Source: a virus
Length of the DNA stretch: 34,345 nt
Reading direction: 5' to 3' (one strand)
IMG/VR virus record: IMGVR_UViG_3300035188_000643
Location: 1-34,345 of that record
Made by a program: the position numbers and the translations under genes. Under the pieces are notes generated by a model that saw only the letters and a list, made by a program, of their open reading frames with translations, was not told where the DNA came from and ran no database searches. Of this stretch, positions 1-34,345 are shown in pieces (within the stretch, counting starts at the first letter, position 1; each line of letters starts with the position of its first letter).

Positions 1-39
1 TAGGCCGAAACGCCCCCTCCGGGGGGCGTCCACCCGTAA
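1..39. repeat. Terminal direct repeat (left copy of contig overlap)
   Basis: Bases 1-39 are identical to 34307-34345. A short exact end repeat on a contig normally means a circular or circularly permuted molecule cut open by the assembler, so one copy should be counted once. The repeat lies inside the hammerhead ribozyme (stem III and the 5' part of stem I). Confidence 0.95.
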
Positions 40-58
40 GGCGGGTGCTGACGAGGCC
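1..58 (+). ncRNA. Type II hammerhead ribozyme
   Basis: All conserved parts of a hammerhead ribozyme are present in the circular order of type II (open at stem II). The 5' strand of stem II is GGCC (3-6), followed by GAA (7-9). Stem III is 10-17/22-29, starts with the A-U pair 10/29 and is capped by C(UCCG)G, an UNCG-type tetraloop. The cleavage-site nucleotide H17 is C30, giving the triplet GUC. Stem I is 31-36/42-47 with loop UAAGG. The core CUGACGA is 48-54, and GGCC (55-58) closes stem II. Predicted self-cleavage is between 30 and 31. On the circular genome the ribozyme begins at the stop codon of the gene at 34055. Bases 39-41 (AGG) could pair with CCU at 34305-34307, which would be a loop I tertiary contact (inference). 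Confidence 0.9.
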
Positions 59-87
59 GTCAGAGTGAACAACAAACCAATCAACAA

Positions 88-315
88 ATGAACGCAACCG
101 AAACGCTCCGTGAACTCTCGACTCTTGTCTCAAATAACATGGCCGCACATGTGGCCGTCTGCGAATACTCTGCCGAGGACAACACGCCCACGCTGCACAT
201 CGACCTCTGGCGTGGTCTTGATTTGTGCGACCTGCCGGAACAGGTGGCGGCGTTGACTGTAGTGTCCGAGGGACATTGGGACGGTGGCCGCAGTTACTCG
301 TTGCAACTGGCCTAA
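88..315 (+). CDS. Hypothetical protein, 75 aa
   Basis: Unrecognised small acidic soluble protein. It starts 30 bases downstream of the hammerhead ribozyme, so its transcript, if read through from the left, would carry a 5' end made by ribozyme cleavage. The leader (60-87) is A/C-rich with no Shine-Dalgarno sequence. The C-terminal half alternates hydrophobic and polar residues like a small beta sheet. No membrane segment is seen. Confidence 0.65.
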   Translation: MNATETLRELSTLVSNNMAAHVAVCEYSAEDNTPTLHIDLWRGLDLCDLPEQVAALTVVSEGHWDGGRSYSLQLA

Positions 316-339: not shown

Positions 340-555
340 ATGAGCACATCTCACTACTCCCGCAGGCCGTACCAAGGCCCGCAACCTGCACCGGCAAACA
401 CAAAGCGGCACAGCGTCGCCTACGCATGCGGCCTTGGCGCACTACTCATCACCGACCTTGTCGCAATCCAGTTTTGCGATTGCCTTGGCGAAAGCCTGGT
501 GATAGCCGGGCTGGCAATCCTGACGACCATCACCATGGCAAGGAGGGCAGCATGA
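340..555 (+). CDS. Small membrane protein, 71 aa
   Basis: Unrecognised. A polar, Pro/Arg-rich N-terminus of about 25 residues is followed by two short hydrophobic stretches (roughly residues 28-43 and 51-66), ending in Arg-Arg. This suggests one or two membrane passes in the inner membrane. The leader is again A/C-rich without an SD. Its stop overlaps the next start by ATGA (552-555). Confidence 0.6.
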   Translation: MSTSHYSRRPYQGPQPAPANTKRHSVAYACGLGALLITDLVAIQFCDCLGESLVIAGLAILTTITMARRAA

Positions 556-33982: not shown

Positions 33983-34006
33983 GCTAGCCAAGCGTGTTTG
34001 GCTGGC
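33983..34006 (+). promoter_or_regulatory. Nine-bp hairpin in the leader of the last gene
   Basis: GCTAGCCAA (33983-33991) pairs with TTGGCTGGC (33998-34006) with one G-U pair and loop GCGTGT. It lies between the small basic gene and the last gene. It might end or attenuate transcription; no T-run follows. The next bases, 34007-34054, are an A/C-rich leader without an SD. Confidence 0.4.
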
Positions 34007-34054: not shown

Positions 34055-34309
34055 ATGAAGCGCAAAACCAAAAAAACCATTAAGTACACCGCCAAAAAAA
34101 TCGCCGCAGGCCATTACCTGTATCGTGGCTGGACCATCAAGCGGTTCGACTACGGCACTCTTGGATGTTCCGAGGCAAACAGTATCGAGTGGAACATCTT
34201 CGCTCCCGGTGAGGAGAATTGGGACAACAGTGAGCCAACCTTGGGGCTTGCAAAAATGGTCGTGGACACCTGCATCAAGCAGGCAGCGGAGCGGGCGCTG
34301 GCAACCTAG
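34055..34309 (+). CDS. Hypothetical protein, 84 aa; stop codon inside the ribozyme
   Basis: Basic N-terminus (MKRKTKKTIKYTAKK) then HYLYRGWTIKRFDYG, a strand-rich core and a C-terminal helix. It resembles small phage DUF-type proteins with a YRGW motif. Its TAG stop (34307-34309) falls in stem II of the hammerhead ribozyme that spans the contig ends, so the ribozyme would trim this mRNA just after the coding part. On the circle the ribozyme continues at base 1. Confidence 0.65.
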   Translation: MKRKTKKTIKYTAKKIAAGHYLYRGWTIKRFDYGTLGCSEANSIEWNIFAPGEENWDNSEPTLGLAKMVVDTCIKQAAERALAT

Positions 34310-34345
34310 GCCGAAACGCCCCCTCCGGGGGGCGTCCACCCGTAA
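34307..34345. repeat. Terminal direct repeat (right copy)
   Basis: Identical to bases 1-39. This copy holds the 5' part of the hammerhead ribozyme (stem II strand, stem III, cleavage site and part of stem I); the complete copy is at 1-58. Confidence 0.95.

Follow-up and report, generated by a model that had tools for sequence, protein, structure and literature searches.

A type II hammerhead ribozyme at a stop codon may split a phage transcript between two exchangeable genes

The role of hammerhead ribozymes in phages has been open since their discovery, and the window analysed here (the whole stretch of viral DNA, 34,345 nucleotides in length) raises the question of what such a ribozyme would do where one gene ends and the next is about to begin. 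In 2011, type II hammerheads were proposed to divide long transcripts of phages into mRNAs the length of a gene or an operon (PMC3088659), and neither the ribozyme family nor the transcript-splitting proposal is new. For the ribozyme in the window, splitting of the transcript between its two neighbouring genes is also the best-supported reading of its role.

A type II hammerhead in front of an early gene block

The window consists of a circular viral contig of 34,306 bases plus a 39-base overlap, bases 1–39 being the same as bases 34307–34345. In a preliminary description the ribozyme was said to span the contig junction; the junction only reflects where the assembler opened the circle. In the relative L002, whose neighbouring proteins are identical to those of the window, the junction is one uninterrupted sequence with a single ribozyme, which makes the junction a matter of assembly. 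The genes and ribozyme parts (the latter as read from the sequence) are:

34307–34345: assembly overlap, a copy of bases 1–39 (sequence identity; L002 is continuous across it)
34055–34309, plus strand: upstream gene, 84 aa, unknown function, with its stop codon TAG at 34307–34309 (open reading frame with homologs; exchanged in relatives)
3–58, plus strand: type II hammerhead ribozyme (Rfam RF02276, 43.1 bits at 3–65; covariation)
3–6 and 55–58, plus strand: stem II, GGCC/GGCC
7–10, plus strand: core GAAA
10–17 and 22–29, plus strand: stem III, closed by UCCG
29–31, plus strand: U29 and C30, with the predicted cut between 30 and 31
31–36 and 42–47, plus strand: stem I, with loop UAAGG
48–54, plus strand: core CUGACGA
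64–87, plus strand: A/C-rich leader of the downstream gene (from the sequence; similar leaders in relatives)
88–315, plus strand: downstream gene, 75 aa, unknown function (exchanged for other genes in relatives)
340–555, plus strand: early-block gene, 71 aa
552–1259, plus strand: early-block gene, 235 aa
1256–3445, plus strand: early-block helicase–DNA methylase fusion

A cmscan search, as the preliminary description had called for, returned Hammerhead_II (RF02276) as the sole Rfam match in the window (3–65, plus strand; 43.1 bits, E 9.2e-6), above the curated cut-off for this covariance model (gathering score of 37 bits). All parts of the conserved core CUGANGA/GAAA/UH are present (CUGACGA, GAAA, and U29 C30), and stems I and III are closed by loops with stem II open, which is the type II permutation. 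The earlier observation of a type II hammerhead with every core position is thereby confirmed, and the GGCC/GGCC stem II, the cleavage nucleotide C30 and the UNCG-type cap (the UCCG loop of stem III) were found as described. Its placement between the last gene and the first small early gene also held, as the upstream TAG occupies bases 1–3 and the next ATG is found at base 88, 29 nt past stem II.

On its 5′ side the ribozyme is preceded by a metallophosphoesterase-like gene, a DUF3310 gene, a 53-aa gene and the 84-aa gene. Homologs of the ORFs that end at the ribozyme differ mainly at third codon positions, which marks these ORFs as real genes. On the 3′ side, three small or unknown genes and the helicase–methylase fusion are followed by replication and recombination genes (exonuclease, Holliday junction resolvase, RecT-like, SSB and DnaB-like), so that the ribozyme stands before the early block. 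Among isolated phages, only weak helicase or methylase matches were found when looking for similar DNA.

A similar setting is known from the HHphage of haloviruses HF1/HF2, likewise a viral hammerhead before an early helicase operon, where a transcript 5′ end was mapped within 3 nt of the hammerhead cut site (PMC3088659). HHphage differs, however, in having a variant core, in belonging to an archaeal virus and in lying 13 nt before the helicase start, whereas in the window small genes separate the ribozyme from the helicase.

That the boundary might really be set by nearby sigma-70 promoters or terminators was also considered and rejected, matches being no more frequent than in shuffled sequences. 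No sigma-70 promoter match was found in 1–1300, and one weak match was found upstream at 33985. Beside the latter, between the 53-aa and 84-aa genes, lies an inverted repeat (AGCCAA-GCGTGT-TTGGCT, 33984–34003), a possible operator.

Conservation of the ribozyme and exchange of its neighbours

With the helicase–methylase protein as query, 80 viral loci were gathered; among those with enough upstream DNA, about 20 have the ribozyme at the same place. Loss of core bases in close relatives had been named as an outcome that would speak against the ribozyme, but the core was invariant across 22 aligned sequences. In this alignment, standard pairs made up 98.3% of paired cells, changes on both sides were seen in 5 pairs (16 cells) within stems I and III, and the covariation score amounted to 0.204, versus 0.090 for shuffles and at most 0.078 with the partner slid. 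Stem II is invariant in the window family and therefore offers no covariation test. At the level of sequence comparison, the fold and its conservation are established, and occurrence at the same place in many relatives, together with compensatory changes, confirms that the element is more than a chance pattern. An inactive relic or chance look-alike would be conceivable, given that 4 of 18 consensus hammerheads were inactive in vitro (PMC3088659) and that activity in the window is predicted only; however, the invariant core in 22 relatives and the covarying stems make this very improbable.

The element is dispensable, since relative L036 retains the same neighbours as the window but has no ribozyme, the genes being joined directly (TAA-CC-ATG). 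No substitute ribozyme was found in 14 loci of relatives lacking the window ribozyme, and L126 carries two ribozymes enclosing one small gene. Relatives with two ribozymes or none provide natural comparisons.

Exchange of neighbouring genes was counted over 35 ribozymes, each having one or more genes in common with the window phage family. The genes that end at these ribozymes fell into 21 families and those that follow them into 13, and one four-gamete set was encountered, in which two upstream and two downstream families occur in all four pairings. As judged from these comparisons, unrelated genes are swapped on both sides in the window phage family and the ribozyme stays. This could in turn mean that the ribozyme DNA serves mainly as a conserved recombination joint between cassettes, cleavage being incidental, as the variety of gene families flanking it and the four-gamete set would suggest. 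However, compensatory substitutions preserve the RNA fold of stems I and III as the DNA sequence varies, and the covariation between tail and core (see below) works at the RNA level, so that we regard a DNA joint as unlikely.

Several otherwise unrelated upstream cassette genes share a common N-terminus (MTTNTA or MTTN) preceded by an A/C-rich leader, and the 5′ end of the cassette looks as if it were a second fixed joint. The small-gene leaders (64–87 in the window, and in relatives) are likewise A/C-rich (AACAACAAACCAA...) and have no clear Shine-Dalgarno sequence. None of the bacterial or archaeal loci had window-family genes close to the ribozyme.

The upstream stop codon at the ribozyme

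In the window, the upstream gene ends in TAG at bases 1–3, and the G of this stop codon doubles as the first base of stem II. This overlap, like the pairing of the tail with the core (see below), goes beyond the preliminary description. For comparison, viral, bacterial and archaeal contigs were subjected to pattern scans with a three-stem filter, yielding a collection of at least 401 distinct type II ribozymes in 198 clusters defined by similar flanking DNA. The scans were biased to GGCC stems, and the proportions given here are therefore those among the matches listed in this collection rather than those of all type II hammerheads.

A stop codon was counted when located at –12 to –4 relative to GAAA, i.e. 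0–5 nt before stem II or overlapping it. Among the matches listed, the stop of an ORF of at least 40 aa was positioned there in 250 of 345 viral cases (133 of 172 flank clusters), and in 18 of 30 cases (13 of 23 clusters) on cellular contigs (bacterial and archaeal). With ORFs of at least 60 aa, this was so for 216 of the 345 viral matches listed versus 2.4% at control anchors located 300–700 bases away, although these anchors were not confined to gene boundaries and part of the excess thus merely reflects that the ribozyme is intergenic. The sharpness of the peak and its asymmetry nevertheless exceed what an intergenic location would give: stops were most common at –6 (TAG), followed by –9 and –7 (TAA or TGA), and on the downstream side the median gap to the next ATG was 25 nt, far longer than the upstream gap. 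Such strict placement behind many unrelated genes points to one common job, for which we suggest the making of message ends, 3′ for the upstream gene and 5′ for the one that follows.

The placement coincides with a base that may be part of the ribozyme itself:

2, plus strand: invariant A before stem II, middle base of TAG (putative tertiary contact with U37 of loop I)

Among 171 de-duplicated ribozymes of the GGCC subtype having a 17-nt stem I, stem II was preceded by A in every case and loop I began with U in 171 of 171, whereas the base after stem II, a possible partner of this A, was U in only 2; none of these three positions was imposed by the search pattern. From the invariance of both bases we infer an A–U tertiary contact (A2–U37 in the window). 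A conserved reverse Hoogsteen pair has been described in type I and III hammerheads (PMC6155905). A stop TAG at –6 has the invariant A in its middle, and TAA or TGA at –7 has it as the last base, so that in the GGCC subtype the A is often part of the stop codon.

This overlap might indicate that cleavage is gated by translation, a terminating ribosome covering the A and stem II so that the cut is made only after the last ribosome, or when the upstream gene is not translated. In most cases, and behind many unrelated upstream genes, the stop codon either includes the invariant A or directly adjoins stem II, which speaks for such gating. However, compactness alone could yield a short gap, phage genes often being only a few bases apart, and such a stop is missing from a quarter of the viral cases. 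Ribosome gating at the fused stop codon is possible, but we hold it to be rather doubtful.

The loci also contained type III (n=7) and type I (n=14) candidates, and in some of the type I candidates a stop falls within the ribozyme. In L313, L328 and L412, type I ribozymes starting with GTAACAC-CTGATGA seem to hold the in-frame TAA of the upstream ORF in stem I, so that stop-codon overlap may not be exclusive to type II.

The 3′ tail and the catalytic core

Stem II of the window ribozyme is followed by the tail GUCAG, which is complementary to CUGAC of the core and, with G53–C58 added, gives a 6-bp hairpin:

48–53 and 58–63, plus strand: alternative hairpin CUGACG/CGUCAG, which excludes the core and stem II (covariation; energies; family conservation)

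This hairpin excludes the active fold and, according to the energy model, is favoured in the 3′ cleavage product, where it adds 8.4 kcal/mol to the stability of the downstream product (from –9.1 to –17.5). Within CUGANGA only position 7 of the core (base 52 of the window) varies, and the comparison demonstrates that the tail base follows it. Among the matches listed, C was combined with G in 44 ribozymes (15 clusters) and U with A in 33 (20 clusters), versus U with G in 2 and C with A in none. A Fisher test on the clusters yielded 1.5e-8, an optimistic value because it takes the clusters as independent. Moreover, matched double changes distinguish near-identical ribozymes (L116/L294, L145/L269 and L182/L174), and between L182 and L110 a matched double change was found despite an insertion between both places.

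About a fifth of the collection has a tail after stem II that is able to pair with the core (NTCAG tails). Core pairing for these ribozymes was 0.83, and fell to 0.44 with the tail of another ribozyme. That all tails pair with the core as a general rule was rejected: tails other than NTCAG showed no excess of complementarity to the core, which was if anything lower than for swapped tails, so that refolding is not general. Other core sub-stretches (TGANG, GANGA etc.) as tail partners gave a weaker excess or none. Pairing of the core is predicted for the 3′ products of nearly all members of the window family, via two types of tail (GUCAG in some and a longer tail, GUCCUUCGUCU, in others).

Taken together with the stop-codon placement, this makes it probable that self-cleavage divides a polycistronic mRNA at the stop codon and leaves a hairpin on both new ends, the tail then refolding the core and rendering the cut final. 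The ribozyme would mark a gene boundary in a polycistronic phage transcript and cut it between bases 30 and 31. The upstream message would be left with stem III as a 3′-terminal hairpin and, through the fusion of stop codon and ribozyme, with almost no loose 3′ UTR; the downstream message would start with stem I as a 5′-terminal hairpin. Because of topology, only type II among the three permutations can supply two closed ends, which would explain the use of type II between genes. The upstream strand of stem II would depart with the upstream fragment, and the freed CUGAC of the core would pair with the tail GUCAG, so that the new 5′ end would carry two hairpins side by side. Refolding of the core by the tail, which is transcribed last, would separate the fragments for good. 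As a fixed joint, the ribozyme would let genes be swapped on either side with the arrangement unbroken. Actual cleavage, the folding order and an effect on mRNA stability are presumed in this scheme.

In the energy model, with tertiary contacts uncounted, the alternative hairpin beats the stem II fold before cleavage as well (–36.5 versus –34.3 kcal/mol), so that the tail could instead switch the ribozyme off. Acting as an off-switch or timer, it would allow cutting only until it captures the core, leaving part of the transcripts uncut with both genes on one message, and the covariation of tail and core fits this equally well. However, the ribozyme can already adopt its active fold while the tail has yet to emerge, the putative A–U contact would stabilise this fold, and partial cleavage is not indicated by any result here. 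Refolding of the core after the cut thus seems the most likely reading of the tail; its main rival, the off-switch, has in our view only a modest chance of being right. With two base changes, the core-covarying tail allows a precise test of whether refolding locks cleavage or limits it. More speculatively, the GGCC subtype of phages might be built around the stop codon, a base of which would dock stem II on stem I, with termination and self-cleavage mutually exclusive and, in some of its members, with the cut locked by a covarying tail through refolding of the core.

The type II hammerheads described before (PMC3088659) resemble that of the window in core, permutation, phage context and intergenic position. 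They differ in their common tertiary contact, a pseudoknot between loop I and the 3′ tail, which is not visible in the window (loop UAAGG, tail GUCAGAG). Among the matches listed, at least 4 pairs of such a pseudoknot were possible in 53% of ribozymes with a stem II of 2–3 bp and in 8% of those with a 4-bp stem II. The main text of PMC3088659 was found to mention neither stop-codon fusion nor a tail covarying with the core, and neither feature was found in the hammerhead literature searched, which left aside several key bacterial papers and supplements.

Other phages also encode self-cleaving RNAs. The theta (HDV-like) ribozymes of gut phages represent another ribozyme class and, in the part of the source consulted, are tied to suppressor tRNAs (PMC10879173). 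In a prophage region of Agrobacterium tumefaciens, a triple hammerhead is present around ardA, the ribozymes of which cut in E. coli (PMC3088659); these flank single phage genes and thus likewise sit at gene boundaries, albeit as three ribozymes where the window has one. Similar arrays are also present in our collection (L089, L097 and L337), and in these three loci and L353 four to seven type II hammerheads were seen within a few kilobases of a single viral contig, each close to a gene end.
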